Shown here piece by piece: positions 39,033 to 59,453 of a stretch of DNA of 64,000 nt; positions within the stretch are counted from its first letter, which is position 1, and each line of letters opens with the position of its first letter. The notes under the pieces were generated by a model. The model had not been told where the DNA came from. It searched no databases and saw nothing but the letters and a program-made list of their open reading frames with translations. Source of the stretch: Halomonas alkalicola (GTDB lineage: Bacteria > Pseudomonadota > Gammaproteobacteria > Pseudomonadales > Halomonadaceae); contig NZ_CP131913.1 of NCBI RefSeq assembly GCF_030704205.1, positions 1,054,001-1,118,000 on the forward strand, read 5' to 3'. Position numbers and translations under genes: made by a program.

Positions 39033-39173
39033 GGGGTACCTCCCGGTTCACTCGAGACGCGACCAGTCGCGCCCACCGTTCTCGCTGATCAGCAGCTGAT
39101 TCAGGTCATCGGCCGCCACCAGTCGCTGGGGATTGTCGGGATCCACCGCCAGGTGCATCAGATAGCGCTCTCC
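38267..39173. repeat. Segmental duplication, copy 1 (lgt plus 3' tail of a BNR-repeat gene)
   Basis: 907 bp matching 52861-53766 (906 bp). The only length differences I see are +2 in lgt here and +1 in the tail of copy 2. It starts in the lgt 3' end and stops abruptly at 39173 inside the membrane-protein reading frame. Confidence 0.9.
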
Positions 39174-39755: not shown

Positions 39756-39769
39756 TTGATACCGGTCAA
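39756..39769. promoter_or_regulatory. FNR/ANR-type box 1
   Basis: TTGATACCGGTCAA (one mismatch to TTGAT-N4-ATCAA). On the plus strand TATGGT (39792-39797) is centred as in class II promoters: box centre to hexamer 29.5 bp, implied start 39804, box at -41.5. The downstream sequence resembles that after box 2 but is cut by an insertion sequence at about 39846. Confidence 0.7.
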
Positions 39770-39845
39770 GCGATCTCCTTGGACAGTGAGCTATGGTGAA
39801 AAGACCAATCGGCGTCAGACACCCATACGCCGTGCCAACCCCCAG

Positions 39846-40681
39846 TGTCAGGATGACTGTCGTGCCCTCTGATACCCTGTTCCTATAAACCGATCAGGGG
39901 GCGAAAGGAGACACTCATGCCTCGTTACTCAGAGGAGCGCCGGCAAGCCGTGGTCACCAAGCTGCTGCCTCCCCACAACCTCTCCCCGCAGGTGATCGCG
40001 GAGCAGGAAGGGATCTCGCTGGGCACCGTCTACACCTGGCGCAAGCAAGCCCGCGCCGAGGGACGTTGCCTGCCGGACGCGCTGGGCAAAGGCACCGATG
40101 GCTGGTCGTCCAAGGACAAGTTCAACGCCGTGCTTGAAACCGCCTCGATGAATGCTCAGGAGACCGCGGAATACTGCCGCCGTCGGGGCATCTTCCCCGA
40201 ACAGCTGGGGCGGTGGCGGCATGACTGCGAGCAAGCCGCCAGCCTCTCGCACTCGGAACGCCAGCGTGAAGCCGACGAGGCCAAGCAACAGCGCAAGCGC
40301 ATCAAGGCGCTGGAAAAGGAGCTCGCCCGCAAGAACGAGGCCCTGGCGGAGACCGCAGCGTTACTGGCCCTCAGAAAAAAGGCGAGGGCGATCTGGGGGG
40401 ACGAGGACGCATGATCAGCACCCCAGATCGCCAACGCGCCATCGCGCTGATCGAAGAGGCCAGGGCCCAGGGGGCCCGCCTGGAGGCCGCCTGCCGAGAG
40501 CTGGGCATCACCGCCAGGACGTACCAGCGCTGGACGCGCGGCGGCGAGCTGCACGAGGACCAGCGCCCTTTGGTCGGCCGGCCGGTGCCGGCTAACGCGC
40601 TAACACCGGCCGAAGAACAGGAGATCCTCGACGTGTGCCACCGCCCCGAGTACGCCAGCCTGCCGCCAGAGCAGATTGTTC
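39846..40681 (+). mobile_element. IS3-type element remnant (element A), 3' part missing
   Basis: It contains an intact orfA-like gene and a truncated orfB-like gene. It is interrupted at 40681 by a second IS3-type element; after that element (43310) the orfB frame reads into FNR-box sequence, so the 3' part was already deleted. The left end is approximate, placed where similarity to the box 2 leader ends. Confidence 0.65.
39917..40414 (+). CDS. Transposase OrfA of IS element A
   Basis: 165 residues: an N-terminal helix-turn-helix (LSPQVIAEQEGISLGTVYTWRKQAR), then WSSKDKFNAVLETASMNAQETAEYCRRRGI, and a C-terminal coiled coil (about 115-155). This is the two-HTH OrfA type of IS3-family elements. 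It overlaps the next gene by 4 bp. Confidence 0.8.
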   Translation: MPRYSEERRQAVVTKLLPPHNLSPQVIAEQEGISLGTVYTWRKQARAEGRCLPDALGKGTDGWSSKDKFNAVLETASMNAQETAEYCRRRGIFPEQLGRWRHDCEQAASLSHSERQREADEAKQQRKRIKALEKELARKNEALAETAALLALRKKARAIWGDEDA

Positions 40682-40695
40682 TGGTCAAGTCGTAG
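40411..40695 (+). pseudogene. Transposase OrfB of IS element A, truncated
   Basis: The N-terminal 90 residues remain (a helix-turn-helix, ALTPAEEQEILDVCHRPEYASLPPEQIV). Insertion of element B at 40682 ends the frame with LVKS; the DDE catalytic domain is absent. Confidence 0.8.
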
Positions 40696-40726
40696 CGGAC
40701 ACTTTTATTAAGCTGCTTCCGCGATT

Positions 40727-42112
40727 GAGTTAAGCTCAGTTCTTGTGTATGGAGGGCAGTAGAGAGGGTGGCGTATCCTGTTGATTGATCTCGCTAGATC
40801 ACAACCAACATAGGACGGATACGCCATGACCGATTCTACTCTCCAAGCCGTGACGCAGCCAGACGCAGGTGCCACCGATCCGCTGCATGAACTGCTGCGT
40901 AAGGGAGCCCGAGACCTGATCGCCAAGGCCGTGGAGGCGGAGTTGAGCACGTTTCTGGAGCTATATGCCGACAAGACGCTGGAAGACGGCCGTCGAGAGC
41001 CGTCGTCCGCAACGGCTACCTGCCGGAGCGCACCGTGCAGACCGGTATCGGCGATGTCGAGATCAAGGTGCCCCGGGTCCGTGACCGCAGTGGCGACGGG
41101 GTGACCTTCAGCAGCGTGCTGCTGCCGCCCTACCTGAAGCGGGCCCGCAGTATCGATGAGCTGATCCCCTGGCTCTACCTGAAGGGAGTCTCCACCGGCG
41201 ATTACCAGGAGGCCCTGTCGGCCCTGCTGGGTGACCAGGCCAAGGGTCTCTCGGCCAACACCGTGTCGCGGCTCAAGAAGCAGTGGGAGGACGAGCATGC
41301 CGACTGGCAAAAGCGTGACCTGGCAGAGCAGCGCTATGTCTACTGGTGGGCGGACGGCGTGTACAGCAACGTGCGCATGGATGACCGCCTGTGCCTGTTG
41401 GTGATCATCGGCGTCACCGAGCAGGGTCGCAAGGAGCTGGTGGCTGTCGAGGATGGGCAACGCGAGTCGGAGGCCAGCTGGAAAGAGCTGCTCACGGGTC
41501 TACGCGAGCGCGGACTGACCACTGCCCCCAAGCTGGCGGTCGGCGACGGCGCCATGGGCTTCTGGGCTGCACTGAGCAAGGTCTATCCGGAGACCGATCA
41601 CCAGCGTTGCTGGGTCCACAAGACCGCCAACATACTGAATAAGCTGCCGAAATCCGTGCAGCCCAAGGTCAAGGCCGACCTTCACGAGATCTGGATGGCC
41701 GAGACCCGCGATGAGCACACACAAGGCCTTCGATCGCACCGTGAAACGCTTCGAGGCCAAGTACCCCAGAGCCATGGAGTGCCTGGCCAAGGATCGGGAG
41801 GAGTTGCTGGCGTTCTATGACTACCCGGCAGAGCACTGGGTGCATATCCGCACCACCAACCCGATCGAATCGACCTTCGCCACGGTCCGCCTGCGGAGCA
41901 AGCGGAGCCGGAATTGCGGCTCCAGAGCGACGACCCTGGCGATGGTCTTCAAGCTGCTTCAGAGCGCCCAGAAGCGCTGGAAGCGGATCAAGGGGTTCAA
42001 CAAGCTGGAGCTGGTCGTGAACAACGTCCAGTTCCAGGATGGCGAGCCCTTGACCGATCAGTCAGACAGGTCTGCCGCCTGACCGGCTATACACAGGATT
42101 TGACAATAACTC
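40727..42112 (+). mobile_element. IS256-family element inside element B, 9-bp target duplication TCCGCGATT
   Basis: TCCGCGATT flanks it at 40718-40726 and 42113-42121. Terminal inverted repeats begin GAGTTA and share TTGTGTAT/CTGTGTAT (18 of 24 positions). The element is 1386 bp. Excision in silico restores the OrfB C-terminus of element B as REIEKIAEAA-stop. Confidence 0.9.
40826..42082 (+). pseudogene. IS256-family transposase with two frameshifts
   Basis: The frame starts [15 protein letters not shown] at 40826. It shifts near 41000 (extra base(s) before [14 protein letters not shown]) and again near 41711 (before the AHKAFDRTVKRF region). The pieces together give a mutator-type DDE transposase: [26 protein letters not shown] (first D), VGDGAMGFWAAL (second D), RCWVHKTANILNKLP, and NPIESTFATVRLR (E). 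About 415 residues if restored. No active transposase can come from this copy as written. Confidence 0.88.
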
Positions 42113-42915
42113 TCCGCGATTTTCTCGATCTCCCTCGGCGTGTGGTAGCCAAGGGTCGAGTGGAGCCGGCAGCTGTTGTACTCCATCTCGATATAGGTCA
42201 CGACGTCGCGCCTCGCTGACTGGCGGGTCCAATACCGCTGTCCCTCCAGCCATTCGCTCTTCAGAGAGCCGAAGAAGCGCTCCATGACCGCATTGTCCCA
42301 ACAGTTCCCCTTGCGGCTCATGGAGGCCTGGAACCCGTGCTTTGCCAGTCGTTCGCGATACGCACGAGAGGCGTACTGGCTGCCGCGATCCGAGTGGTGA
42401 AGCACGCCTCGGGGAGGCTGTCGGCGGCCAATTGCCATCTCCAGGGCGTCCAGGGTGAGTGACGTCTTCATATGGTCGGCCATGGCCCAGCCGATGACCT
42501 GTCGGTCGTAGAGGTCCAGCACGGCCGCCAGGTACAACCAGCCTTCCAAGGTCCAAATGGCAGTGATGTCGGCCACCCACGCCTGATTGGGCTCAGGCAC
42601 CGTGAACTGCCGCTTGAGCAGGTTGGGAGCCACTGGCAGCCCGTGGTCGCTGTCCGTCGTATGCCGGTAGCGGCGACGCTGTCGGCAGGCGACACCCGCT
42701 TCCTGCATCAGGCTACGCGCCTGATAACGACCGACCGTATGACCTCTGCGACGGAGTTCCTTGGCCATTCGCCGGCTCCCATAGCTACCTCGTTTCTGAT
42801 CGTGGATGTCCTTGACCTCCCGGTGCAGGCACTGGCGCTGCTCATCGGGTTCACGCTGACGCCAGGCATAGAAGCCACTGCGGCTGACGTCCATGACACG
42901 GCACAGCACCGCCAC
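42058..42915 (-). CDS. Transposase OrfB of IS3 element B, C-terminus altered by the IS256-type insertion
   Basis: 285 residues with the rve-type DDE domain: WVADITAIW (D), LHHSDRGSQYAS (D) and WDNAVMERFFGSLKSE (E). The N-terminal part is the HTH_21 region (SYGSRRMAKELRRRGHTVG). The final AESYCQ...DLSD comes from the inserted element and replaces AEAA. The catalytic core is complete. It is expected to be made as an OrfAB fusion by -1 slippage on the A7 run at 42987-42993. Confidence 0.9.
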   Translation of the reverse strand: MAVLCRVMDVSRSGFYAWRQREPDEQRQCLHREVKDIHDQKRGSYGSRRMAKELRRRGHTVGRYQARSLMQEAGVACRQRRRYRHTTDSDHGLPVAPNLLKRQFTVPEPNQAWVADITAIWTLEGWLYLAAVLDLYDRQVIGWAMADHMKTSLTLDALEMAIGRRQPPRGVLHHSDRGSQYASRAYRERLAKHGFQASMSRKGNCWDNAVMERFFGSLKSEWLEGQRYWTRQSARRDVVTYIEMEYNSCRLHSTLGYHTPREIEKIAESYCQILCIAGQAADLSD

Positions 42916-42953
42916 TGGGAAGGAGGCCTTCTCCGACTCGATGAACTGGTATC

Positions 42954-43247
42954 TCAGCTCGACTCTCTCGCGAAGAAGGCCGTGGCTTTTTTTAAAACCT
43001 CCTTTTCAATCCGCAACTTACGAACTTCTTCGCGAAGCTTCTTGATCTCGGCATCCCGCTCATCCACCTGGTCGTCAGTCACACCATCCTCTCGGTCACG
43101 TTGCTGGCGGCACCAGCGATCCAGCAGGCTGCGATCGATATCCAGCCGCCTGGCGGCCTCGGAGATGGCATAGCCCTCTCCTCGAACCATGTTGACCGCC
43201 TCAGCCTTGAATTCGTCGGAGTAACGACGTCGCGTCTTCTTGGTCAT
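42954..43247 (-). CDS. Transposase OrfA of IS3 element B
   Basis: 97 residues from MTKKTRRRYSDEFKAEAV, an HTH_Tnp_1 domain (GYAISEAARRLDIDRSLLDRW), then a leucine-zipper coiled coil (EIKKLREEVRKLRIEKEVLKKA). A run of seven A on the coding strand (42987-42993) near its end is the likely -1 frameshift site for the OrfAB fusion. Confidence 0.88.
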   Translation of the reverse strand: MTKKTRRRYSDEFKAEAVNMVRGEGYAISEAARRLDIDRSLLDRWCRQQRDREDGVTDDQVDERDAEIKKLREEVRKLRIEKEVLKKATAFFARESS

Positions 43248-43317
43248 GAACACCTCCAATGCCTCCAGTATGAGGCTTACCGGGGTGTCCGCTCCAATTA
43301 GACCAGTTCAATATCAC

Positions 43318-43331
43318 TTGATGTCGATCAA
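43318..43331. promoter_or_regulatory. FNR/ANR-type box 2 (perfect) with class II promoter
   Basis: TTGATGTCGATCAA. TATGGT at 43354-43359 lies 29.5 bp from the box centre, giving a start at about 43366 with the box at -41.5. The secreted-protein gene starts at 43395. Confidence 0.8.
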
Positions 43332-43394
43332 GCGACATTGGATGCCAGTGAGCTATGGTGAATAGGATCCCTCAGCGTCAGGCAACGATGCGCC

Positions 43395-43823
43395 ATGCAC
43401 TCTCACAGCTTATTCAACCGCCAAGCGCCGTATGTTCCCGTGAAGTGGGCAAGGCTATTGCTGGTCGGGCTATTTGCGCTGCTGCTGAGTGGGCTCGCGC
43501 TGGCCCATGCCGAGGCCCCGGATCCCGAGGCCGGTGATCCCGGGCACCACGTGGTAATGGTGCTTGAGGGCGCTTCCACCACGGTGGCTGCTGAAGCGCG
43601 GCATGAAGAAGGGCCACTTTGCCGGCACGGTCATGGCGAGTTCACCCTGCCTAAGGGAGTCCTGCGTGTCGATCAGCAGGAAATCGAGTACGAGGATGCC
43701 CTGACGGTCACCACCGAACCGACGCCTGCCCCCATCCCTAGTTTCGTCTCCGGCACACCTCGAAAACAGCCGTCCAATTCCGGCGTTCCCATCTATCTGC
43801 TCACCCAGCGCCTGCGCCTGTAA
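43395..43823 (+). CDS. Small secreted His/Cys protein with C-terminal YLLTQRLRL motif
   Basis: 142 residues. A signal peptide (about 17-40, ARLLLVGLFALLLSGLALAHA) precedes a low-complexity region with GPLCRHGHGEF, a possible metal site, and the C-terminus GVPIYLLTQRLRL. The same ending occurs in the proteins at 58218 (VPLYLLTQRFRS) and 52319 (PPVYLATARLRI); all three follow FNR-type boxes. I do not recognise the family. A GTG at 43438 is an alternative start that would begin directly at the signal peptide. The gap after it, 43824-43967, shows no further feature. Confidence 0.75.
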   Translation: MHSHSLFNRQAPYVPVKWARLLLVGLFALLLSGLALAHAEAPDPEAGDPGHHVVMVLEGASTTVAAEARHEEGPLCRHGHGEFTLPKGVLRVDQQEIEYEDALTVTTEPTPAPIPSFVSGTPRKQPSNSGVPIYLLTQRLRL

Positions 43824-43967
43824 GCCGTACATCCGTTCTACTCGGAGCCGCGGCACGGGCATACCCACGAACGTTGTCGGTTTGGTGCTACGGTCACCGG
43901 TGTCCTAACTGAGATCTCGATACTTGGTCTCATGTGTTGATACACACCAGTAAAGTGAGTGATTGCC

Positions 43968-45104
43968 ATGAACGTTGAAACCTTTCGTGATGTGGTCGAG
44001 TGGACTCGGGCCCTGCATGAGCATCTGGCCAGGTGCCTGAAGCACTGTTCAACGCGGCAGGAGGAGGAGCGCGCCAAGTGGCTGTTGGAATATCTAGCGG
44101 ATCATGAGGCGGCACTGGAGAAAACCGTCACTAGCTTCAAGAAGCAGGCCGCCACCAAGGCGTTGAATACCTGGCTCTACGACTACATTGCCTACGCGCC
44201 CATCAAGCCCCACCTGTCATGCAGCGCACCCTATGCGGAGATGAGCTTCGACGAGATCTGCCAGGAGGTCTTCGACCTCCATGAGCAGGTCATCGGCTTC
44301 TATCGCTATCTCGAAGGGCGTACCGAGATTCCCGAGACGCGCAAGCTGATCGGTGAGCTCCTGAAGCTCGAAGAGCATGAAGCGATGCGCCTGGTCCACC
44401 AGACCAACCGCTCCAAGGACCTCTATATGGCTCAGCAACCTTCCACTACGGCGACGGATCGGCTGTGGCCGGCTACGGTGGCCAACCAAATGATGCTCAA
44501 CCTGTTGAGCTACCAGACCGATCTCTGGCAGCGCAGCGTGCTCCATCTGGACACCCTGCGTGAGCGCGCAAACAACATGCTCGAGCACGAGCGGGCCGGC
44601 AAGCCGCCGCTGCTCGACTTCGACTACGAGACAGTCCTCGACGGCCGCCGGCTGGAACGCCCCGCTAACTATGCGCTGCTGCGGATCACCCGGGGGGGCG
44701 ATGACTGCCTGGAGGACTGCCTCGACGCGACCAAGCCCCCAGTAGTCATCGTTGATCCGCGCGCCGGCCACGGCCCCGGCATCGGCGGCTTCAAGCGCGA
44801 CTCCGAAGTCGGGATGGCGCTCCACGAAGGCCACCCGGTCTACTTCGTCGCCTTCTTTCCGGAGCCCGTGGCCGGGCAGACGCTGGGTGATGTATTGGAT
44901 GTCTTGCGGCGTTTCGTCGAAACGGTAGCCGAACGCCACCCTGGCAAGCCGCCGGTGCTCTACGGCAACTGTCAGGCGGGCTGGGCCATCGCTCTGCTCG
45001 CCGCCGACTGCGAGGGCCTGGTGGGACCCGCACCCCAAGCGCGGCCAGGAAGCGATGGACGCCATCGGCGTATTGCCCTTCGTGCGTGGCGTGCTGGTGC
45101 ATGA
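43968..45104 (+). pseudogene. Helical-domain protein fused in frame to a truncated DUF3141 protein
   Basis: Residues 1-150 are an all-helical domain (MNVETFRDVVEWTRALHEHL...LEEHEAMRLVHQTNRSKDL), ferritin- or hemerythrin-like in helix pattern, with many His/Glu. From about residue 155 (MAQQPSTTATDRLWPATVANQ) begins a DUF3141 alpha/beta-hydrolase-like protein with PPVVIVDPRAGHGPGIGGFK and the nucleophile-like elbow YGNCQAGWAI. The two join through TATATG, as if a stop codon had mutated and linked two adjacent genes. The DUF3141 part is cut at about 45026 by an IS66 fragment, and the last 25 residues are foreign. Confidence 0.7.
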
Positions 45105-45699
45105 TCACTGGAAGCCCTACTACCGCTATCCGGATTGCCGGCACGCGCTCTGTAATGCGCACCACCTTCGGGAGCTGACAGCGGCCTGGGAGAACGATGG
45201 CCAGGCATGGGCCAAGGCCTTGCATGACCTGTTGTTGGAGATGCATCGCGCCGTGGAGGTGGCCGACGGCTGCCTCTCGGCCGATGAGACCCGAGCCTGG
45301 CGGCAGCGCTATCGAGATTGCCTGGCGAAAGGGGACGCCGAGTGCCCCCCGCCGGTGAAACCGCCACCTGGAACGCGAGGCCGGGCCAAGCGCACCAAGT
45401 CGCGCAACCTCCTGGAACGCCTCCAGGCGTACGGGGACGACGTGTTGCGCTTCCTCGACGACCCTGCCGCTCCCTTCACCAACAACCAGGGGGAACGCGA
45501 TCTGCGAATGACCAAGGTCCAGCAGAAAATCTCGGGCTGTTTCCGCTCCTGGGAGGGGGCGGAGATCTTCTGCCGGATGCGCAGCTTCCTCTCGACCGCC
45601 GTCAAGCAAGGGGTGGCGGCGCATACCGCACTGGAGCAACTGTTTGCGGGTGATGTGCCATCCTTCATGCAGCCTACAGCCACGGATCAGGCGGCGTGA
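45026..45699 (+). mobile_element. IS66-family transposase fragment (C-terminal half of TnpC)
   Basis: The frame DPHPKRGQEAMDAIGVLPFVRGVLVHDHW...CNAHHLRELTAAWE is the middle of an IS66 TnpC; FTNNQGERDLRMTKVQQKISGCFRS and RSFLSTAVKQG are its conserved C-terminus. The N-terminal half and the other IS66 genes are missing. Its left boundary lies inside the DUF3141 gene. Confidence 0.88.
45055..45699 (+). pseudogene. IS66 TnpC, 5'-truncated open frame
   Basis: 214 residues from an internal ATG. The first catalytic aspartate region (upstream of VHDHWKPYY) is only partly retained, while the glutamate (NNQGERDLR) is present. It is unlikely to be active. Confidence 0.8.
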
Positions 45700-45728
45700 G
45701 CTAAACAGTTACCAACAAGGTATACATC

Positions 45729-46790
45729 ATGTATGACCACCATGGGTCACCGATACTGAATCCCCTCTGGGTGATCGCGATCATCCTTATCGTCGCCGCC
45801 CTCTACTGGCTACGGGTTCTCGCTGCGCCCATGGCATTCTCGCTGTTTCTGATGGCGCTGGTGTGGCCTGTGTACCAACACAGAGCATTCAAGGGAAGGC
45901 GAGCACTGCGCGGATTGGCGCTCATCGTTTCGGTTATGCTCGTGTTGGTTGCCACGGCTGCGTTTCTCCTGCTGATCGGCTACGGCGCCCGTACCGTTGC
46001 GGTCGGCCTGTCCCTGTATGGCGAACGTGCACAGGAGACCTATCGCGCCATCGGGCTATGGCTCGAAGGAAGGGGGGTTGGCCTTTGGCCCACCGCCGGT
46101 GATCCGTTCAGCCCCAACGGACTCTTTCACCTGGTTCATGAGGCCGTGCTGCGCATCAATGCGATCATGGGCTTCGTGGCATTGACCTTGATCTTTCTGA
46201 TTCTGGGCCTGCTGGAAGCCAGTGCCTTTCAGCATCGCCTTCCTCATGCACTTGGCGCGGATGCAGCCGACCGGCTGTTGAGGGCATTCCATATTCTCGG
46301 GTGGAAATTTCGCCGCTACATGCTCGTCAGGACCGCTGTCAGTGTACTGACCGGTTTGTTGACCTGGATATTTGCGCTAATGGCGGGGCTCGACTTTGCC
46401 ATTGCCTGGGGCATACTCGCCTTCGCGCTGAACTACATCCCCTTTGTCGGCTCCATTCTCGCGGTCTTTCCTCCGGTCCTTTTCGCCATTGTCCAGTTCG
46501 AGTCATGGCAGACCCCGGCACTGGTTCTCCTCGGCATGACACTCATCCAGTTCTCTATCGGCAACCTGCTTGACCCCAGGCTCGAAGGACGCGCCCTTGC
46601 CGTCTCCCCCTTCGCCGTCGTTTTTTCCATTTTCTTCTGGGGCATGCTATGGGGCATCCCCGGCGCCTTCATGGGTGTTCCCTTGACGATCGCCTTCGCC
46701 ACGGTATGCAACCATTTTCATGATGCCTGCTGGATAACTCGGTTGTTGACCCCTCATAATTCACCAGCTAAGGCCAAGAGATCAGGATGA
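45729..46790 (+). CDS. AI-2E family transporter (PerM/YdiK/TqsA-type membrane protein)
   Basis: 353 residues with about eight membrane helices: two or three at the N-terminus (NPLWVIAIILIVAALYWLRVLAAPMAFSLF), a soluble middle segment (about 90-140), and the C-terminal block ILAFALNYIPFVGSILAVFPPVLFA with GNLLDPRLEGRALAVSP and WGMLWGIPGAFMGVPLT, the family signature. Members act as efflux permeases or Na+/H+ antiporters; the substrate is unknown. It starts 29 bp after the IS66 fragment, so its promoter may have been replaced. The gap 46791-46917 shows nothing. Confidence 0.9.
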   Translation: MYDHHGSPILNPLWVIAIILIVAALYWLRVLAAPMAFSLFLMALVWPVYQHRAFKGRRALRGLALIVSVMLVLVATAAFLLLIGYGARTVAVGLSLYGERAQETYRAIGLWLEGRGVGLWPTAGDPFSPNGLFHLVHEAVLRINAIMGFVALTLIFLILGLLEASAFQHRLPHALGADAADRLLRAFHILGWKFRRYMLVRTAVSVLTGLLTWIFALMAGLDFAIAWGILAFALNYIPFVGSILAVFPPVLFAIVQFESWQTPALVLLGMTLIQFSIGNLLDPRLEGRALAVSPFAVVFSIFFWGMLWGIPGAFMGVPLTIAFATVCNHFHDACWITRLLTPHNSPAKAKRSG

Positions 46791-47644
46791 CAAAAGGGCG
46801 AATGCCGCTGAAGTGGAAGAGTGGCGAAAGCGTATGGGTAATCAGGGCCGCAGCTGAGAGAATTAGCTTGGCTATCCAGCCATATGTTGCGGATATGCGA
46901 CGTTGCTAGGTGGACCAATGACAGTACCACCTCGATGGCTACGGCTTATCGCCCTTGTGGCTGTTGTGCTAGCAAGCGCCACCTGCTTTGTAACACTCAA
47001 GGCGGCCCTTGAGCAGGCACCGCCGTTGCGCCTGGTAGCGCTGCGCTTGTTAATTGGTGGCGCCATGCTGCTCGCGCTGTTTCCTGTGATGGGCATTCGG
47101 CTCGTACCCAGTCGCGATCTATGGCCATGGATCATCGTACTGGGCATTGCCGTCACAGCCTTTGCCTACGGCACCATGGCTATCAGCCTTGGATACACGG
47201 GAGCCGGGATTGCGTCGGTACTGGGTAACAGCCAACCCTTGCTGGCGGTTGCACTGGGTGTCTGGCTGCTTGGCGAGCGACTGACCCGGATGCGCTTGCT
47301 TGCCTTGTTGCTAGGCCTTGTGGGCGTCGTTCTGGTGGCGTTTCCGGCGACATCTGAGATGGCCGTGGGTGGTCAAATCGGCCCATTACTCGCACTGGCG
47401 TCAAGTGTAGGGCTCGTCACAGCCAGTTTGATCGTCAAGCACGTCGGCCCAGGCGTGTCTCGGCTTATGCTGGCCGCTTGGCCACTGGTGCTCAGCAGTG
47501 TTCCATTGTTCCTTCTCTCGCTGGCACTGGAGCCCGATCCCAAGATCACATGGTCGTTACAGTTCATTAGCCTATTGCTGTTCCTCGGGATTTGCATATT
47601 CCAGCGAACGTGACCGGTCATTCCGGGGATCGTGACCGATTTGC

Positions 47645-48445: not shown

Positions 48446-48461
48446 CGGTCGTCTCCTCGGG

Positions 48462-49979: not shown

Positions 49980-50579
49980 GGGAATCCTCGGTGCTGGCAT
50001 CGTCCCCTCCGGGGCCAAAGGCAAAAGGAGGGGTATGCCGTAAAAGTCCGAATCATTCCAGCGAGTTAGATGAGATTCCGGGAACGTGACCGATGATTCC
50101 GGCATCGTGACCACGGATTCCGGGGAAGAGGCCGAAATCGGTCACGATGAAACGGAATGGCCGGTCACGTTGGCCCGGAATGGTCGGTCACGATAGATCG
50201 GAACGGGCGGTCACGATGGCTCGGAATACGCAGGATTCCCGGCACGGCCCTCCTGACACTCACCTGGTACTGGTTGCTTCGTCATGGTGATCTCGGGCGT
50301 CTGTCACTGTTTTTCTATGCGGTACCAGCCGTGGGCTTTGGATTTTCCTGGGTCCTCTATGCGGAGCCCATTACGCGGCAGGAGTTGGGTGGGATCATGC
50401 TCATTTTGTTGAGCATCGCCGCAATCTTTTCCGAAGAGTGGCAGGCAGGACAAGACTGATGAAATACCTGGGCGAGAGATGTCAGAGCCTGAGCATAACG
50501 CATAGGGCAACCCGTGCCGTGCTCCCCGCCGAGGCAGGGAACAGGGTTGAATTTACCGACGGATACAGAGCTGAGTCAC

Positions 50580-50825
50580 TCACTCCATCACATGTTGGTG
50601 GCGGAACTCGACTTCGGTAATCGATTCTCCAGCGCGGTTGATGCGTAGCTGAATACTGTATCCGCCTTCTGCCGGGAATCTGAAGAAGTTGCCATAGATG
50701 ATCGTATCGGCGATGTCCATCGGCTCGAGTGGTCTGAAGGAGCCCGCATGCCGTTCATGAACCAGGCGTGCGGTAACATCGGCATCCTCGATCCGCTGGC
50801 CACTTTCTTGGTCAGTCAGCGTCAC
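50580..50825 (-). pseudogene. Fragment of a periplasmic protein (C-terminal beta domain), 5' end missing
   Basis: About 80 residues: VTLTDQESGQRIEDADVTARLVHERH and GNFFRFPAEGGYSIQLRI look like the C-terminal half of a small immunoglobulin-like periplasmic protein (YtkA/FixH-like style). No signal peptide or natural start is present; the frame begins just after a stop. I regard it as a remnant. Confidence 0.45.
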
Positions 50826-50890
50826 GATCAGGTGCTGCTCGCGGGTAGTCCATTAACTGCTTGGTCGTTTCGCCCCTCCTCTCGACATTC

Positions 50891-51259
50891 TTATCGTTTT
50901 CCCTTACCACCTGGCGGCGTCTGATGACAGCTCCACGGTTCCTGTCTGGCGTTGTCCTTCACGTTCTGATCAACAAACCGATAGTGTTCCTCCTTGAATC
51001 GATTCCACCAACCCTGGCTGATTTTCACAGTGTGCCTCTCCAGAATTTCCTCGACGCAGTCGAGACACAGTCTCGAGGCGTCGTAATCCAGGTCCAGCCT
51101 CCGTTTTTTGGGGTCGAAGGCAACACTATCCAGCCCGTATAGCTCGTCGATGTCGGCGACAGCAGCGCGAATGTCCTCCTCCTCGCTGGGCTCAAGTTTC
51201 AGGTGCCGAGTCACCAGGTTGATCTCGGATACGCCTAGACGATGATCTTTAGTTTTCAT
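50891..51259 (-). CDS. Ferredoxin-fold-like CLDC protein of unknown function
   Basis: 122 residues from [22 protein letters not shown]. The predicted order strand-helix-strand-strand-helix-strand resembles HMA metal-binding domains, but the CxxC (LCLDCVEEIL) lies at the start of the second helix, not in the first loop. A Lys/Arg-rich tail follows. The first about 85 residues are closely similar to the N-terminus of the chimera at 53602. AGGAGAATATCCC precedes the ATG. It lies downstream of a methyltransferase-like gene and a DUF2933 gene on the same strand. Confidence 0.65.
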   Translation of the reverse strand: MKTKDHRLGVSEINLVTRHLKLEPSEEEDIRAAVADIDELYGLDSVAFDPKKRRLDLDYDASRLCLDCVEEILERHTVKISQGWWNRFKEEHYRFVDQNVKDNARQEPWSCHQTPPGGKGKR

Positions 51260-51330
51260 GGGATATTCTCCTATTCTACCAAGTTTTTCGTACACAGAAT
51301 CGATCAGCCATCGGTGTCAGACGGCATGCT

Positions 51331-51996
51331 TCATTCCCCCTTGGAATGAGCAGGGGATTTGGGATTGACTCGGGGTATAAACCCCGGAATTTTCTTCATA
51401 TAGGTTCTGTATTCCTCGCCAAACTCTTTCATAGCCATCTCTTCTTCGCGGCGAGCGAGGCGTACATAGACCACAACCAGGATTGGGAACATGATGAGGG
51501 TCAACAGCGTGGGCCATTGCAGCAGGAACCCGAGCATGATCAGGATAAAGGCGGCATATTGCGGGTGTCGGCAGCGCGCATACCAGCCGGTCATAGCGAG
51601 TTCGCCATGCTGCTGGGCTTGGTGAAGTACACGCCAGGAAGACGCCAGAATGAGGAACCCCACCACGATGATGATACTGCTGGCGATATGCAAAACGTTG
51701 AAATGAGGGTCTCCCTCAACCCCCAGGAGAGTCTGGAGAAGGTGACCGCTCTCGTGAGAGAAGGGATCAAGATCGGGGAAGCGCGAGGCCAACCAGCCGG
51801 CCAAAAAGTAGATGGTCAGGGGGGACCCGTACATCTCCACGAACAGCGCCACCACGAATGCCGAGAAGGCACCCAGGCTCCGCCAGTCCGTCTTACTGCG
51901 TGGCTTGATGAAGCTGAACGCGAAAAAGATGAATACGGCCGAGTTCAGGACGACCAGTATCCACAGCCCATAGGCGCTGTGATCCGCGTTCATCAC
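51331..51996 (-). CDS. Isoprenylcysteine carboxyl methyltransferase-like membrane protein
   Basis: 221 residues with five or six membrane helices. The C-terminal part has the ICMT/PEMT signature: GWYARCRHPQYAAFILIMLGFLLQWPT followed by RREEEMAMKEFGEEYRTYMKKIPGFIP. These enzymes use SAM, but many bacterial members have no known substrate. They recur in metal-resistance islands beside DUF2933 proteins, as here. It overlaps the DUF2933 gene by 4 bp. Confidence 0.85.
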   Translation of the reverse strand: MMNADHSAYGLWILVVLNSAVFIFFAFSFIKPRSKTDWRSLGAFSAFVVALFVEMYGSPLTIYFLAGWLASRFPDLDPFSHESGHLLQTLLGVEGDPHFNVLHIASSIIIVVGFLILASSWRVLHQAQQHGELAMTGWYARCRHPQYAAFILIMLGFLLQWPTLLTLIMFPILVVVYVRLARREEEMAMKEFGEEYRTYMKKIPGFIPRVNPKSPAHSKGE

Positions 51997-52226
51997 TGAT
52001 CCTCCTCGTTCTTGCTCTTGCCGTGGTGGCCACCGTGACCGCCGTGCATGAACACATGCATCAGCGGACAGGCCAGCAAGATGAGAAAGGGAAGAAACTG
52101 TATAAAGTGAACCCTATGCTCAGCCCACAGCAGATACACCACGAAGGCGAGAAAAAGTCCCAGTGGCAGCCAGAAACGTATTGGCTGCTGGCCGCCGGAG
52201 TCGGCAGAGTGCTTGTCGAGTTTCAT
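51993..52226 (-). CDS. DUF2933-type small membrane protein
   Basis: 77 residues with two helices (FWLPLGLFLAFVVYLLWAEH and FLPFLILLACPLMHVFMH) and a His-rich C-terminus (MHGGHGGHHGKSKNEEDQ). The pattern PLMHVFMH with a His-rich tail is the DUF2933 signature common in copper and heavy-metal islands. It is coupled to the methyltransferase-like gene. A second member lies at 61955. Confidence 0.8.
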   Translation of the reverse strand: MKLDKHSADSGGQQPIRFWLPLGLFLAFVVYLLWAEHRVHFIQFLPFLILLACPLMHVFMHGGHGGHHGKSKNEEDQ

Positions 52227-52318
52227 CGTTCACCTCGGATGGCTCGTAAGTCGGCCCGATTGGAGCCAGACTCATGGAACACGCAAAATTCGGAAGACGT
52301 CGCTGAAAGCGATTGATC

Positions 52319-52711
52319 TTAGATACGCAGCCGTGCCGTAGCGAGATAAACGGGGGGAGATGAGTACGTAGCGAGGCCACACAGGTGCGATGCTTCGCCC
52401 CGTGTAGCAAGGAGGAAAGGAGAGGAAAAAAGCTCGAGGGGTAACCCCGCGGCAGCCGCCGGGTTGCGCAGGTCTTCTGCCGGCACCTTGCCGAGGCTGG
52501 CCGTGATTCCGGGAGAGGGATCGTCGCAGTTCTCCGGATGCTGAGACGGCGACTCATCTACCACAGCAAGAATCACCTGGCTCTCCGGCTCGCCCACTTC
52601 CAGTTGGGGCGAGCAGGCGTAGGCCGCTCCCACCGACCAGGCCAGTAGCCAGAGAACGAACATGCCCGGCCACCGGGCGAACAGCGATCTGCGTAATCCG
52701 TACAGGCTCAT
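52319..52711 (-). CDS. Small secreted protein with C-terminal YLATARLRI motif
   Basis: 130 residues: a signal peptide (about 15-32, FVLWLLAWSVGAAYA), then CSPQLEVGEPE, a Cys/His/Asp stretch (SQHPENCDDPSPG) and the C-terminus PPVYLATARLRI. The ending groups it with the proteins at 43395 and 58218. FNR-type box 3 lies upstream at class II spacing. The function is unknown; periplasmic metal or redox stress handling is inferred from the neighbours. Confidence 0.7.
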   Translation of the reverse strand: MSLYGLRRSLFARWPGMFVLWLLAWSVGAAYACSPQLEVGEPESQVILAVVDESPSQHPENCDDPSPGITASLGKVPAEDLRNPAAAAGLPLELFSSPFLLATRGEASHLCGLATYSSPPVYLATARLRI

Positions 52712-52792
52712 GATGCCTCTTGGAAGTTGCCTTCCGTCCGTGCGCCAATCCAGCTGATAAGCTCAGTATGGGCGCGGCTACTGTCGATCGCG

Positions 52793-52806
52793 CTGATACA
52801 GATCAA
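52793..52806. promoter_or_regulatory. FNR/ANR-type box 3
   Basis: On the minus strand TTGATCTGTATCAG (one mismatch). CATACT at 52770-52765 is 29.5 bp from the box centre, with an implied start at 52758, 47 bp before the secreted-protein gene. Confidence 0.7.
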
Positions 52807-53624
52807 GTTCCTTTTTGGCTCCTGGTCTGTGCCTGCTGTTTCGGCTCATCCACCGACTGACGCCGCGACCAGCCGATCAGCGCCGCGCCTGCCACCATCA
52901 TCGGCAGGGTCAGCGTCATGCCCATGGTCACCCAGCCGAAGGCGATGAAACCGATATGCGGATCGGGCAGGCGCACGAACTCAACGGCGAAGCGGAAGAC
53001 ACCATAGAGCAGCAGGAAGAGCCCGGAGATCAGCCCGGTGCGGCGCGGCTCGCGGGAGAGCCACCAGAGCACCGCGAACATCACCACCCCCTCCAGGGCG
53101 AACTCGTAGAGCGCCGTGGGGTGGCGCGGCTCAGGCCCCATATGCGGGAAGGGCATCGCCCAGGGCAGCTCACTGACCCGGCCCGGCAGCTCGTGATTGA
53201 TGAAGTTGCCGATCCGCCCCGCCCCCAGGCCGATCGGCACCAGCGGTGCGATGAAGTCGGTCAGCGACAGGAAGCCGAGCCGCTTCTTGCGCGCGAACAG
53301 CCAGGCCGCCACCAGCACCCCGACCAGGCCGCCGTGGAAGCTCATGCCCCCCTCCCAGAGTCGCAGCAGCCAGAGCGGGTCGGCAAGCCACTGCCCGCTG
53401 CCGTAGAAGAGCGCATAGCCCAGCCGTCCGCCGAGCACCACGCCGACGGCGGCGTAGAAGATCAGGTCGCCGATATCATCGTGGGTCAGGCCCAGGCGGT
53501 GGGCCCGGCGGCGCCCCAGCCACCAGGCGGCAACGAAGCCCACCACGTACATCAGGCCGTACCAGTGAATCGCGAACGGGCCGAGGCTGATGGCCACCGG
53601 GTCAATCTGTGGATATTGCAGCAT
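52803..53624 (-). CDS. lgt: Prolipoprotein diacylglyceryl transferase, copy 2, intact
   Basis: 273 residues with seven membrane helices. [18 protein letters not shown], the Lgt signature [14 protein letters not shown] and the final GWSRR are in place. It differs from copy 1 by a few bases and by the C-terminus ([17 protein letters not shown] against PAVEAASR), because the duplication ends at 52861. It transfers diacylglycerol from phosphatidylglycerol to the lipobox cysteine. It may serve the lipoproteins of the island, or make up for the broken copy 1. Confidence 0.93.
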
Positions 53625-53766
53625 GGGGTACCTCCCGGTTCACTCGAGACGCGACCAGTCGCGCCCACCGTTCTCGCTGATCAGCAGTTGATTCAGGGTC
53701 ATCGGCCGCCACCAGTCGCTGGGGATTGTCGGGATCCACCGCCAGGTGCATCAGATAGCGCTCTCC
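52861..53766. repeat. Segmental duplication, copy 2
   Basis: 906 bp matching 38267-39173. It includes most of lgt and about 140 bp upstream. A 112-bp part of the upstream tail region (53698-53809, reaching past this block) is also shared with 55076-55187 in the BNR-repeat gene. Confidence 0.9.
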
Positions 53767-54042
53767 CCAGCCACGCTTCACCACCTCCCAGTCACGGCTG
53801 GCTTCCTCGACTGCATGCTTCCTCAGTATATCCTCCACACAGTCAAGGCATATTCGCGTTGCATCATAAGCAAGGTCGAGCCGACTTTTCCTTGAGTCAT
53901 ACGATACACTCTCCAGCCCATAAAGCTGATCGATGTCGGCGATTGCCGCCTGAATCGCCGCCTCATCACAGGGCACCAGCTTCAGATGCCGGGTTACCAG
54001 ATTGATCTCGGACACACCCAAGCGGCGATCTTTATCGCTCAT
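53602..54042 (-). CDS. Chimera: CLDC-protein N-terminus joined to a BNR-repeat protein tail
   Basis: 146 residues from [20 protein letters not shown]. Residues 1 to about 77 are a close relative of the protein at 50891, including [11 protein letters not shown]. From [37 protein letters not shown] it is the tail of the protein at 55019. A single extra base (GGGTCATC) then shifts the frame, so it ends differently and runs 23 bp into lgt. FNR-type box 4 lies upstream. It is probably a by-product of recombination, but it has a promoter and an intact frame. Confidence 0.65.
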
Positions 54043-54120
54043 ATCAATTACCTTATTCTTCAAGAGTATCGTGCTAGCGCATCAGTCCTTTAAGTATTGC
54101 TCGGACTGGAGCCACTCACA

Positions 54121-54134
54121 TTGATATGGATCAA
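54121..54134. promoter_or_regulatory. FNR/ANR-type box 4 (perfect)
   Basis: TTGATATGGATCAA. On the minus strand AATACT (54098-54093) lies 29.5 bp from the box centre, giving a start at about 54086, 44 bp before the chimera gene. Confidence 0.75.
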
Positions 54135-54179
54135 GTTTGATCTCACCTTAAAAAAACAGCCAGACATGGCGTTATTACT

Positions 54180-54956
54180 TTATGCACCTCTTCGCTTTCT
54201 TTGAAAGAAAACTTTCAACGTAGCTGCCGATTGCAAGATCAAGACGCTTCCGATAAGAGCAAGGAACCAGAATCGAAACCAGTTTGGATCCGGAACCCCA
54301 CGCTGAAAAACCAGATTCCTGAGGCTCAGCTCATAGTGCAAGAAGAGGAAGTAGCTTGCATGAAGGGCTACAAGATAGAAAATTACGTAAGCGTAATTCT
54401 GAAGGTGCTTCCATGTTGAGCTGCCCAGGAAGCGCATGGCCTTGTCGGACGATATGGCGAACAGCACGAGCCCAAGGAAGAGAGCGATCAGACCGATCAT
54501 GTTGGCAAGCCCGAAGCCCGGGTCAACGAGAACTGGGTCCGAAAGCCCCACTACCGGCAAGTCCTGATAGCCTAAAAAACCGCGGATCGACCAGCGTGCC
54601 CAGCCATCCCACACCAGGAAACCGTGTACCAAGGCAAAAATGGCAAACCAGATTCCAAAAGCTCGCCGCCAATTGACGAGATAACCTAGTCTCCGGGGCC
54701 ACAGCCTTGCCAGCGGACCTATCGCCATGACGACAACCAATAGAATGAAGGCGGCATCACCGAAGGCCCGCCAAGTGCGCATTTCCGCGTCCCACTCCAT
54801 ACGGCTCAACCAGAATAGCCCGGCTGCCGCGGCACCGGTCAGGGCGACAGCGAAGTGCTTGCCAAAGTGCCAGCTCTTTGTCTGCTCCTTGGTTTTTGTT
54901 GGTGATGCCCCTTCATCCATGATCCCACTAGCCTGTGCTCTATGCTCCATCTCCAA
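54180..54956 (-). CDS. Ferric reductase-like transmembrane protein
   Basis: 258 residues with six or seven helices. AFGIWFAIFALVHGFLVW and STWKHLQNYAYVIFYLVALHASYFLFLHY hold the paired histidines expected to bind heme in the ferric reductase/MsrQ/YedZ group. A cytoplasmic N-terminal extension of about 30 residues precedes the first helix. It probably moves electrons across the inner membrane; donor and acceptor are unknown. It lies downstream of the BNR-repeat gene on the same strand. Confidence 0.8.
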   Translation of the reverse strand: MEMEHRAQASGIMDEGASPTKTKEQTKSWHFGKHFAVALTGAAAAGLFWLSRMEWDAEMRTWRAFGDAAFILLVVVMAIGPLARLWPRRLGYLVNWRRAFGIWFAIFALVHGFLVWDGWARWSIRGFLGYQDLPVVGLSDPVLVDPGFGLANMIGLIALFLGLVLFAISSDKAMRFLGSSTWKHLQNYAYVIFYLVALHASYFLFLHYELSLRNLVFQRGVPDPNWFRFWFLALIGSVLILQSAATLKVFFQRKRRGA

Positions 54957-55018
54957 CCCTCTCTCCTCTTTATCCTGACGTCTCGACTTCGCCGGGCTAA
55001 GCGCGCTGATAAATGGCG

Positions 55019-55882
55019 TCAGTCGAGGCGTACCCAGTCGCGACCGCCGTTGTCGCTCTGCAGCAGCCGCCCTTCGTCATCGGCCGCCACCAGTCGCTGG
55101 GGATTGTCGGGATCCACCGCCAGGTGCATCAGATAGCGCTCTCCCCAGCCACGCTTCACCACCTCCCAGTCACGGCTGGCTTCCTCGGCTCGCAGCAGGC
55201 CGACGTCCAGCATGAAGGCGTAGAGCGTCCCCTGGCTGGCCACGACCAGGCTGACGGGGCGGCGCTCGGCATGGATCTGGCGCCAGCGCTCACCGCCGTC
55301 CGGGCTCATCAGGAGCCCGGTCTGAGTGGCAGCATAGAGCTGCTCGGAATCACGACTCGAGGCAGCCAGGGCAATCAGCCCGGCCGGCGCCTTTGCGAGA
55401 ATCCGCCAGCTGGTACCGCCATCCTGGCTGACCTGGAGCTGGCCGGCATAGGCCCCGTAGAGCACGTTGGGGCTGGCCGCGCTGACGGTCAGCTGATGGA
55501 AGTCCACCGGGCCATCGACGCCCGCCGCAAGCCGTGACCAGCTGCGACCTCCATCACCGGAGATCACCACCCCGAGGTTGCCGCCAGCCGCCGGATGGCC
55601 GCTGGCGAAGAAGGTCTCGGCCTCCTCGGGATGAGGCGCGAAGCCCATGAAATCATGGGTCTCCTCCGAGACCCTCCGGGCCTTGCCATCTCGCTCCACG
55701 GCATAGAAGCCATGGTGGGTCGCCAGCCACAGTCGTTCGCTGTCGGCTCGATCGAAGGCCAGGCCGTGAATGTGGGTCTGCTGACGCAGCTGGTCGAGAC
55801 TGATGCTGATCGGCTCTCGGGAGCAGCCCGCCAGCAGCGTAAAGAGCAGGGCCATCGCGAGTGGCCATCGATAATGGGTCAT
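55019..55882 (-). CDS. BNR-repeat lipoprotein (F510_1955-like, sialidase/Vps10-type propeller)
   Basis: 287 residues. The lipoprotein signal ends at lipobox LAGC (MALLFTLLAGCSREP). Repeated Asp-box-like motifs SGDGGRSWSRL, SQDGGTSWRIL, SPDGGERWRQI and SDNGGRDWVRL mark the blades of a beta propeller. This family recurs beside copper oxidases in halophile metal islands; its function is unsettled. Its last about 50 codons are the source-type sequence of the tails seen at 39048 and 53602. Confidence 0.82.
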   Translation of the reverse strand: MTHYRWPLAMALLFTLLAGCSREPISISLDQLRQQTHIHGLAFDRADSERLWLATHHGFYAVERDGKARRVSEETHDFMGFAPHPEEAETFFASGHPAAGGNLGVVISGDGGRSWSRLAAGVDGPVDFHQLTVSAASPNVLYGAYAGQLQVSQDGGTSWRILAKAPAGLIALAASSRDSEQLYAATQTGLLMSPDGGERWRQIHAERRPVSLVVASQGTLYAFMLDVGLLRAEEASRDWEVVKRGWGERYLMHLAVDPDNPQRLVAADDEGRLLQSDNGGRDWVRLD

Positions 55883-55964
55883 GACGTCACTTCCTTATCC
55901 CTCGTCAGGTATGGCCGGCGCCATGCGAAGCCGCCGCATGGCGCCGAAGCACGATACGGCAGGA

Positions 55965-57629
55965 TCAGCTCACGCGGATCGTCGCCATCATCCCCAGCTC
56001 TTCGTGCTCGATGATGTGGCAGTGGAACAGCCAGTCGCCTGGCTCGCGGAACACCATGCGGAGTTTCAGGCGCTGGTAGGGCGCCAGGTTGACGGTGTCC
56101 TTCCAGGCCAGCCAGGGCGCCTCGCGCCACTCGCCGTCGCCATCGCGGCTGGCGACCACCTGGAAGTGGGTGCCATGCACATGGAAGGGGTGGTCCATAT
56201 GGGAGTTGTTGAAGACCTCCCACTCCTCCACCTCGCCGGCCCTGCCCTCGAAGAGGATCTCGTCCATGGCGAAGGCGCGGCCATTGATCAGGAAGTCCAC
56301 CTCCGGCCGGCCGGCCATCTCGGACATGTCGTGGCCATTCCCATGACCGTTTCCATGGCCACCTCCATGACCATTCTGGGCAGCGCCATGGCCACCACCG
56401 TGAGCGTCATGGTCATCCGACGCGCCCGACATGCCGCCATGCTCATCGTGGCCAGCGTCTGGCATGCCGCCTTCCTCGCCATGTCCCGCACCGTTATCGT
56501 CATGGCCCGGCATCACCTCAGTCAGCTCCACCCGACGCTGCACCGCCGGCTCGACCAGGGGCTCGACGCTACCCAGCCGATCAGGCAGGGTGACGGCGGG
56601 CTGTACGCCCGAGTTACGGGTGTGGATTGCCAGCAGCGGCGCAACCTGGTCCAGATGGGGCGGACGATCACCCATCCAGCCACGCTCGTAGGGGTGGCTG
56701 GCCAGCCAGAAGCGCCCTTCGACCTGTTCACTCACCCGGACCAGCAGGTCGGCGCGCTCGCCCGGGGTGATCAGCAGCTCCTCCAGCGGCTGAGGCCGCT
56801 CGATCAGCCCGCCGTCGGTGCCGATCAGGGTCAGTTCGTGCTCCTCCAGGCGCAGACGCAGATAGCGGCCGGCGCAGGCATTGATCAACCGCAGACGCAG
56901 GGTGGTGCCCGGCGCCACATCGAGGCGCGGTTCGCGCTGGCCGTTGACCAGCAGCAGTTCCCCCTCGCGGCCGTTCAGCCAGTCCTCGGCGGTGTGGGGA
57001 GCGACCTCGCCCGTTGCCGTCAGGCGCAGGTCGCTGACCACCAGCAGGTGCTCCTCCACCTCCATCGGCAGCACATCCTGGGGCGGGCGCACCAGCAGGG
57101 CGCCGGCCAGGCCATGGGCCACCTGTCGGGCGGTGCCCTGGTGGGGATGAGGATGGAACCAGTGCAAGCCAGCGCTGCCCTCCGGGAAGGTGTAGTGGTA
57201 GCGGCGTGACTCGCCTGGCGCCACGGCATCCCAGGGGGCGCCATCCTGGGCCTGGGGAACCGGCACGCCGTGCCAATGCACGGTGGTCTCCTGCTCCAGT
57301 TCGTTGATGAGGGTGATGTCCAGTTCATCTCCCTCGCGGACCTCGATCAGCGGTGCCACCTTGCCGTTGTAGAGCCACAGCCTGGCCTCGAGCTCATCGC
57401 CGAGCGGCACCGCATGGGGGGCCGGCGTCAGCGCACTATGAAAGCGGCCGGCCGTCTCGCTCAGGTTGGCGATACGTGGCAGCGGTTGCAGCGGCTGGCC
57501 GCCTTCGGGAAGCAGGGCAGGCGCCATGCCGTGGCGTTGCGTGCGGGTGGCGGCGAAGGCCATGTAGCCGGTCGATGACAGGACCAGGCCACCCAGGGCC
57601 GAGTAGCGCAGGAAATCGCGACGATTCAT
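55965..57629 (-). CDS. Tat-exported multicopper oxidase (CopA/CueO-like)
   Basis: 554 residues. A Tat signal (MNRRDFLRYSALGG) is followed by three cupredoxin domains. Copper ligands are HWHG (about 118), HWFHPHPHQG (about 155), HMDHPFHVHGTHF (about 475) and the type 1 and trinuclear motif HCHIIEHEELGM at the end. Between domains 2 and 3 is a His/Gly/Asp/Met-rich insert (about 375-445, GHDEHGGMSG, GGGHGNGHGNGHDMSEM). It oxidises Cu(I) or phenolics in the periplasm and is a main copper-detoxification enzyme of the island. Confidence 0.94.
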   Translation of the reverse strand: MNRRDFLRYSALGGLVLSSTGYMAFAATRTQRHGMAPALLPEGGQPLQPLPRIANLSETAGRFHSALTPAPHAVPLGDELEARLWLYNGKVAPLIEVREGDELDITLINELEQETTVHWHGVPVPQAQDGAPWDAVAPGESRRYHYTFPEGSAGLHWFHPHPHQGTARQVAHGLAGALLVRPPQDVLPMEVEEHLLVVSDLRLTATGEVAPHTAEDWLNGREGELLLVNGQREPRLDVAPGTTLRLRLINACAGRYLRLRLEEHELTLIGTDGGLIERPQPLEELLITPGERADLLVRVSEQVEGRFWLASHPYERGWMGDRPPHLDQVAPLLAIHTRNSGVQPAVTLPDRLGSVEPLVEPAVQRRVELTEVMPGHDDNGAGHGEEGGMPDAGHDEHGGMSGASDDHDAHGGGHGAAQNGHGGGHGNGHGNGHDMSEMAGRPEVDFLINGRAFAMDEILFEGRAGEVEEWEVFNNSHMDHPFHVHGTHFQVVASRDGDGEWREAPWLAWKDTVNLAPYQRLKLRMVFREPGDWLFHCHIIEHEELGMMATIRVS

Positions 57630-57696
57630 CAGGTTGTCCTCGTGACATGAACACTCTCACCGCGGGGGTGCCCGCGGCGCCATGGGGGGAGGGGGT

Positions 57697-58080
57697 TCAG
57701 CGACGAGGAGGCCGTTCGAAGGGCGCGGGAGGCCCGGACGGATTGCCCAGATCAGGTCCGGACAGGGGGATGGAGGAGACCGCCCCCTCAGCGGCCAGCC
57801 GGGCCATGGAGGCTCCGCACTGGGCACAGGGCAGGCAGCAGGGGGACGCTGCAGAGGAGTGTGACTCGCTCGGTTCGGCCGTTTCCGACGTGTCCCATGC
57901 CACCGGGTCTTCCAGTGACAGGCTCTCCAGGCAGGCCACATCACCATGATGCCCACCCGCGGCAACGGGCGCCGCAATGGCCAGCAACAGGGCCATCACC
58001 AGGCAGAGCAGCCAGTGGCAGGAGAGTCGACGCATGGGGTGAAACGGCCTTGTCAGCCAATGGAAGAACGAGTATTTCAT
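57697..58080 (-). CDS. Small secreted Cys-rich protein
   Basis: 127 residues. A signal peptide (cleavage near APVAAGG) precedes HHGDVACLES and the cluster SPCCLPCAQCGASM; it ends FERPPRR. The protein at 62245 has a similar plan (signal, CASCAALP, ending RRPPRA). Such proteins resemble CopL/DUF2946-type periplasmic metal proteins, without a firm match. An ATG at 58035 is an alternative start nearer the signal peptide. It is divergent from the gene at 58218. Confidence 0.65.
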   Translation of the reverse strand: MKYSFFHWLTRPFHPMRRLSCHWLLCLVMALLLAIAAPVAAGGHHGDVACLESLSLEDPVAWDTSETAEPSESHSSAASPCCLPCAQCGASMARLAAEGAVSSIPLSGPDLGNPSGPPAPFERPPRR

Positions 58081-58137
58081 GGCCTCGAGGATACCCGCAA
58101 CCTGGGTCCTGCACGCAGGTTTACCATCAGATAACTC

Positions 58138-58151
58138 TTGATTTGCATCAA
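58138..58151. promoter_or_regulatory. FNR/ANR-type box 5 (perfect)
   Basis: TTGATTTGCATCAA in the divergent gap between two secreted-protein genes. On the plus strand a weak hexamer (CTAGGG at 29.5 bp or TAGGGT at 30.5 bp from the centre) gives a start at about 58186. No comparable hexamer is seen on the minus strand. Confidence 0.72.
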
Positions 58152-58217
58152 TGGACAGTTTGCGCCGCTGGCCCTAGGGTTATAGCCACATGGCACAGAT
58201 TAAGTGAGCTCCACGAG

Positions 58218-59373: not shown

Positions 59374-59453
59374 TCGGCGGAGTCACTGAATACGCAACAT
59401 CAAGGACGGCCAACCCTGGCCGTCCACTCGGCGACAGCTGCAGGAGGCACGTG

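Follow-up and report, generated by a model that had tools for sequence, protein, structure and literature searches.

FNR/ANR-type boxes and the operons behind them

The analysed window is a stretch of 64,000 nt from Halomonas alkalicola (contig NZ_CP131913.1 of assembly GCF_030704205.1, positions 1,054,001-1,118,000), which carries a copper island with five FNR/ANR-type boxes. Three of these boxes head operons whose first gene is an unannotated leader open reading frame (ORF), and the promoters and their leaders are the subject of this work. The pattern TTGAT-N4-ATCAA was scanned in the window and in the whole 3,611,010-bp genome, with at most one mismatch allowed. Five sites are found in the window, at positions 39756, 43318, 52793, 54121 and 58138, exactly where an earlier note on this DNA had placed them. 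The sites at 43318, 54121 and 58138 are perfect and those at 39756 and 52793 have one mismatch, also as claimed there. Read toward the gene behind each, sites 1, 2 and 5 lie on the plus strand, and sites 3 and 4 on the minus strand. A -10-like hexamer follows at each site (TATGGT, TATGGT, CATACT, AATACT and TAGGGT, in order). It starts 22 bp past the box at sites 1-4, in agreement with the claimed distance of 29.5 bp from the box centre, and 23 bp past it at site 5, where the earlier note had allowed for 30.5 bp.

The leader ORFs behind boxes 2, 3 and 5 have 130-144 codons, a hydrophobic start and similar ends. Box 2 (TTGATGTCGATCAA, 43318..43331, plus strand) and its hexamer (43354..43359) precede leader 2 (43395..43823, plus strand), a protein of 142 aa with the patch CRHGHG and the end VPIYLLTQRLRL-stop. 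It is followed by a truncated ORF (43968..45104, plus strand), the N-terminal part of which resembles a stand-alone 150-aa gene of relatives and is fused to a DUF3141 piece; the sequence after this ORF is what we take to be IS66-like. Box 3 (TTGATCTGTATCAG, 52793..52806, minus strand) overlaps the end of an lgt ORF and, with its hexamer (52765..52770), precedes leader 3 (52319..52711, minus strand; 130 aa), which has the patch NCDDPS and the end PPVYLATARLRI-stop. The genes behind leader 3 (50891..52226, minus strand) encode a small membrane protein (51993-52226), an isoprenylcysteine-methyltransferase-like protein (51331-51996) and a small conserved protein (50891-51295). Box 5 (TTGATTTGCATCAA, 58138..58151, plus strand) and its hexamer (58175..58180) precede leader 5 (58218..58652, plus strand; 144 aa), with the patch CHHDHA and the end VPLYLLTQRFRS-stop. 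Behind leader 5 lie the genes of a CpxP/Spy-like protein (58771..59373, plus strand; profile match below the curated cut-offs) and a copper-type P1B ATPase (59451..61958, plus strand; TIGR01511, 544.8 bits against a cut-off of 397).

The two remaining boxes lack a leader. Box 1 (TTGATACCGGTCAA, 39756..39769, plus strand), with its hexamer at 39792..39797, is what remains of a copy of promoter 2; its leader gene has been lost, and a transposase ORF starts behind the box at 39917. Sites 1 and 2 align over approximately 81 bp, whereas the remaining pairs of window promoters align only at the box. These two sites therefore count as a single promoter, which leaves four independent ones. Box 4 (TTGATCCATATCAA, 54121..54134, minus strand) and its hexamer (54093..54098) precede an operon (52803..54063, minus strand) composed of a chimeric ORF (53602-54063), in which a small protein is fused to a piece of an F510_1955-type protein, and lgt (52803-53624). 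The earlier description of five boxes across a metal island is thus accurate in its positions, but the boxes amount to only four independent promoters and mark the heads of operons rather than the whole island.

The boxes are enriched in the window, although to a degree that depends on their quality. Five sites compare with 0.34 expected in shuffled sequence, and five or more were reached in 0 of 100 shuffles. On the genome-wide count, the perfect sites are clustered in the window, whereas the clustering is weak when one mismatch is allowed. Three of the six perfect boxes in the genome fall inside the window (P = 1.1e-4 for at least three of six in a given 64-kb window, a window that was not chosen blind). 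When up to one mismatch is accepted, the genome has 91 boxes and the window five, against 1.6 expected (P 0.02). Among the three other perfect boxes of the genome, only the one at 2805283 is followed at +22 by TANNNT, on one of its two strands, and the other two have no such hexamer in either direction, so the +22 spacing is not general to every such box.

Some neighbouring features of the island were also observed. Near-identical copies of lgt occur at 38236-39300 and 52803-53900, the first of them split up over overlapping frames, and an F510_1955-type protein is present in pieces that are joined to other ORFs (55019-55882). The two lgt copies and the fused pieces suggest that repeats within the island have recombined with each other. 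A full copy of the site-4 DNA is found in only one other genome, G400 of the same genus, where 189 bp (53982-54170) are 100% identical. Because of this identity pieces appear to move between genomes, and it suggests a recent exchange of island pieces. On the other side of box 5, a small exported Cys-rich ORF ending in FERPPRR (57697-58080, minus strand) lies just before a multicopper oxidase gene (55965-57629, minus strand); the two look like a cutF-cutO pair that diverges from leader 5. The intergenic region between the Cys-rich ORF and leader 5 contains a 21-bp dyad, ACCT-N13-AGGT (58100-58120), a candidate operator that presumably resembles the MerR/CueR type.

Conservation of promoter and leader among relatives

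A profile built from six leaders was searched in 201 sampled genomes of the family and in 293 genomes of the order. It matches in 32 of the 201 family genomes, and after G440, G327 and G332 were dropped, a leader with a box is present in 29 of them. In the order sample only three genomes have a match, namely the own genome, one of the same genus (G102) and one of another family (G184). A wider profile searched in 350 genomes of the class matches only the own genome and, weakly and partially, a tail-less sequence (G723, E 4.9e-4); on these counts a spread of the leaders beyond the family was rejected. G184 was kept in addition to the 29 family genomes. In total, 46 loci were examined. Four were dropped, two that are not leaders (L090, L105) and two that keep the tail and have lost the N-terminus and the promoter with its box (L103, L104), which leaves 42 loci. 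From these, 26 non-redundant promoters, less than 90% identical to each other, were chosen, including the three from the window itself.

The named carriers belong to Halomonas or Billgrantia, for example H. salipaludis, B. gudaonensis, H. rhizosphaerae and H. urumqiensis. In Halomonas sp. KO116 the leader is plasmid-borne, carries the annotation "hypothetical protein" and stands ahead of genes for YHS, DUF5676, methyltransferase and SHOCT proteins and a copper P-type ATPase. Ten of the eleven named loci agree with the arrangement described here, and these ten partly overlap the sampled genomes (L106, L107 and L112 with G320, G411 and G446). The eleventh, L109 of H. shengliensis, has no leader end in the available stretch, and like L103 and L104 it is a leader broken by rearrangement.

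The promoter is conserved along with the leader. All 42 intact leader loci have the box, with no mismatch in 16, one in 21 and two in 5, and in intact loci the leader gene is the first behind the promoter. A hexamer [TC]ANNNT starts exactly 22 bp past the box in 22 of the 26 non-redundant promoters, whereas any other offset from 0 to 45 is found in at most 4. When offsets of 21-23 bp are taken together, 25 of the 26 promoters and 38 of the 42 loci have the hexamer; the four loci without it are near-identical promoters with TATATG (L077, L082-L084). Moreover, the promoter windows (5,200 nt) contain 22 boxes with no more than one mismatch, compared with a single one in the remaining 82,155 nt of these loci. 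In FNR/ANR/DNR class II promoters the activator box is located at -41.5, and the fixed spacing gives strong support to the earlier proposal that these are FNR-type boxes at approximately -41.5 in promoters of class II. A leaderless box-like site (ATGATGCACGTCAA, N22, TATGCT) was also seen in genome G430 (L123, 4931, minus strand), about 1 kb upstream of a leader promoter.

The leaders have two features in common, a Cys patch, which mostly reads CHHGH, and a C-terminus of the form YL[LAV][TS]xRxRx that reaches the stop codon. A six-frame search of the window for the C-terminal pattern gives three matches, each being the first gene behind a box. In the last nine residues of the 26 non-redundant leaders, the Tyr, the Leu and both Arg are present in 26 of 26 and the Thr in 25, and the synonymous codons vary freely; outside this set, leader L098 has Phe in place of Tyr. 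The distance from the patch Cys to this Tyr is 57-60 residues in all 26 (mean 58.3, sd 0.95), and it is 56 in three near-identical leaders that were dropped from the set. The spacers between patch and Tyr are on average only about 31% identical (equal-length pairs), and the N-terminal part ahead of the patch Cys varies from 58 to 80 residues (sd 6.5). All 26 leaders are 127-147 aa long, with start codons assigned manually, and their N-termini are hydrophobic as judged by eye, no signal predictor having been used. Pfam and NCBIfam give no credible match to the leaders, leaders 2 and 5 of the window included, and the DUF2946 profile matches neither the three window leaders nor a set of 18 leaders.

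Two proposed layers of control and the candidate regulator

Taken together, boxes 2-5 are probably FNR/ANR-class sites in class II promoters, and the copper operons would stand under the control of ANR together with a leader that senses metal co-translationally. Leader-first copper operons lie behind three of the four intact promoters. In the first layer, the Fe-S regulator ANR, which is active at low oxygen, would bind at about -41.5 and start transcription, and the genes of the leader operons are likely to respond to oxygen. In the second layer, the Cys/His patch of the nascent leader may sample metal outside the membrane during export, and its C-terminus in the ribosome tunnel may pause or release translation, thereby setting the expression of the copper genes behind. 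The distance from the patch Cys to the end of the leader is 66-69 residues. Given the usual lengths of ribosome tunnel and translocon, the patch would therefore lie beyond the membrane with the tail still in the ribosome.

A tentative extension, with the chances just short of even, is that the two layers form a two-input switch. ANR would read oxygen, exported leaders of the arrest type (CHHGH, 58 residues, YLLTQRxR-stop) would read metal outside the membrane, and full expression would require both to agree; the tail would then be a pausing motif unlike RAPP, RAGP or PP. With respect to the earlier interpretation, in which low oxygen, NO or redox change, and not metal alone, would switch on much of the island, the class II reading is well supported, but it overlooked the leaders behind three of the boxes, the relic nature of site 1 and the rearrangement at site 4.

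Several observations weigh against the two-layer reading. Site 4 has no leader, and of the 30 loci of its gene that were compared, the one in the window has a class II box and 0 of the 29 in relatives do; on this count the idea that site 4 is a conserved promoter of the small protein was rejected. RNA folding of the intergenic region behind the leader is weak (whole-region z of -2.6 to 0.9). In 16 regions of the leader-Spy type, folding indicates a small hairpin ahead of the Shine-Dalgarno site (Stouffer -3.85; 32 control windows give -1.3), and 6 regions of other operon types show nothing of the kind. No C-rich, G-poor stretch extends beyond the first 20 nt past the leader stop, and the region is not clearly of the Rho type. 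A strong attenuator, a CutF-type stem-loop and a Rho-type C-rich region were all unconvincing on these folding and composition results. Most leaders lack the C-terminal stalling motifs known from the literature (RAPP, PP), PP being present in the last 14 residues of 7 of the 26. In four leaders the patch is less sure, because CDD or CDK stands in place of CHH. Furthermore, the genome of Halomonas alkalicola also holds a DNR-like gene and two further Crp/Fnr genes, and TTGAT-N4-ATCAA is recognised by ANR, DNR and their relatives alike.

Part of this evidence would also suit another function of the leader. With the class II promoters being real, the leader could be a conventional metal-binding protein of the periplasm, acting in trans, with a tail that makes a protein contact instead of pausing the ribosome. 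Putative export signals, a Cys/His patch, the lack of a strong attenuator structure or terminator and the scarcity of known stalling motifs are all compatible with such a protein. However, conservation runs up to the stop codon, the patch-to-tail distance stays at 57-60 residues while the sequence between and the N-terminal length drift, and the leader gene comes first behind the promoter in intact loci. We consider a trans-acting protein unlikely.

As for the regulator, four Crp/Fnr-type genes lie above the family cut-off in the genome and none within the window. A regulator encoded on the island was rejected, as PF13545 has 6 matches in the genome and 0 in the window. One of the four genes is an FNR/ANR with CQTCSLSSLC (CxxCx5C) and another is DNR-like; the latter adjoins genes that we take to be of the nitrite-reductase type, and the two others adjoin what are presumably moaA/moeA-type genes. 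All 29 leader-bearing family genomes encode an FNR/ANR relative, which reaches at least 74% identity in 26 of them, and CxxCx5C was read in 6 genomes, the own included, and in all three with less than 74% identity. The sites could instead be served mainly by a DNR/NarR-type paralogue that senses NO or nitrate, in line with the additional Crp/Fnr genes and the motif they have in common. A DNR of at least 70% identity, however, is present in only 14 of the 29 genomes, and on this count DNR as the required regulator was rejected. In G446, which has a single match in the ANR search and none in the DNR search (E 1e-3), the leader promoter keeps the box (2 mismatches), the spacing and the -10 hexamer, and in G360 both searches match one and the same gene. 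Such a paralogue is an improbable main regulator, and on these distributions and single-gene results ANR is the best candidate regulator of the leader promoters. Finally, it is very improbable that the boxes arose by chance or are inherited repeats that were multiplied by duplications in the island. The copying of site 1 and site 2, the mild enrichment of one-mismatch sites in the window and the identical site-4 stretch in G400 would suit such an origin, but the other window promoter pairs do not align past the box, and box and spacing are kept in 26 promoters less than 90% identical to each other.

Copper defence is usually seen as metal-induced, and the mobile copper island described here would instead carry promoters of the type used by an oxygen-sensing activator. 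Should the leader prove to be an arrest peptide, co-translational metal sensing could be tested on it directly, thanks to the uncommon tail, the fixed patch-to-tail distance and the wealth of natural variants.

Comparison with known promoters and copper leaders

The leader promoters are similar to FNR/ANR class II promoters in having TTGAT-N4-ATCAA at a presumed -41.5, a -10 hexamer 22 bp past the box and a CxxCx5C FNR-type gene in the genome. They differ in standing before copper operons that contain a leader ORF; their transcription starts and oxygen response are presumed ones. No report of FNR/ANR control of such copper operons, or of this leader family, was found among the titles and abstract openings that the searches gave or in the excerpts of the two leader papers cited below.

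Two known systems resemble the leaders. According to the excerpted text of the report on it, CutF of Rhodobacter capsulatus senses metal during its own export (PMC9973294). Like the CutF-like proteins in that excerpt, the leaders have less than 150 aa by the assigned start codons, a putative export signal, a Cys/His metal patch, a conserved C-terminus and a gene directly before copper genes (PMC9973294). In contrast to CutF as presented there, the tails read YLxTxRxRx rather than being proline-rich, with PP near the end in only 7 of 26, no clear stem-loop is seen over the next Shine-Dalgarno site and the promoter is of the FNR type; FNR is not mentioned in the excerpt (PMC9973294). The second system is CruR of Bordetella pertussis, a member of the DUF2946 family, for which the excerpted report gives the arrangement CXXC-45 residues-RAPP and states that the distance matters for regulation (PMC9426467). 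The leaders have in common with CruR, so far as that excerpt describes it, an upstream ORF for a presumably exported protein, a metal motif whose distance to a conserved C-terminal motif is constant and a copper operon behind, whereas their own arrangement is CHHGH-58 residues-YLLTQRxR and they have no DUF2946 match (PMC9426467). On the basis of these likenesses and differences in sequence, the leader family is best read as a variant of copper leaders like CutF and CruR, with a new C-terminal motif.

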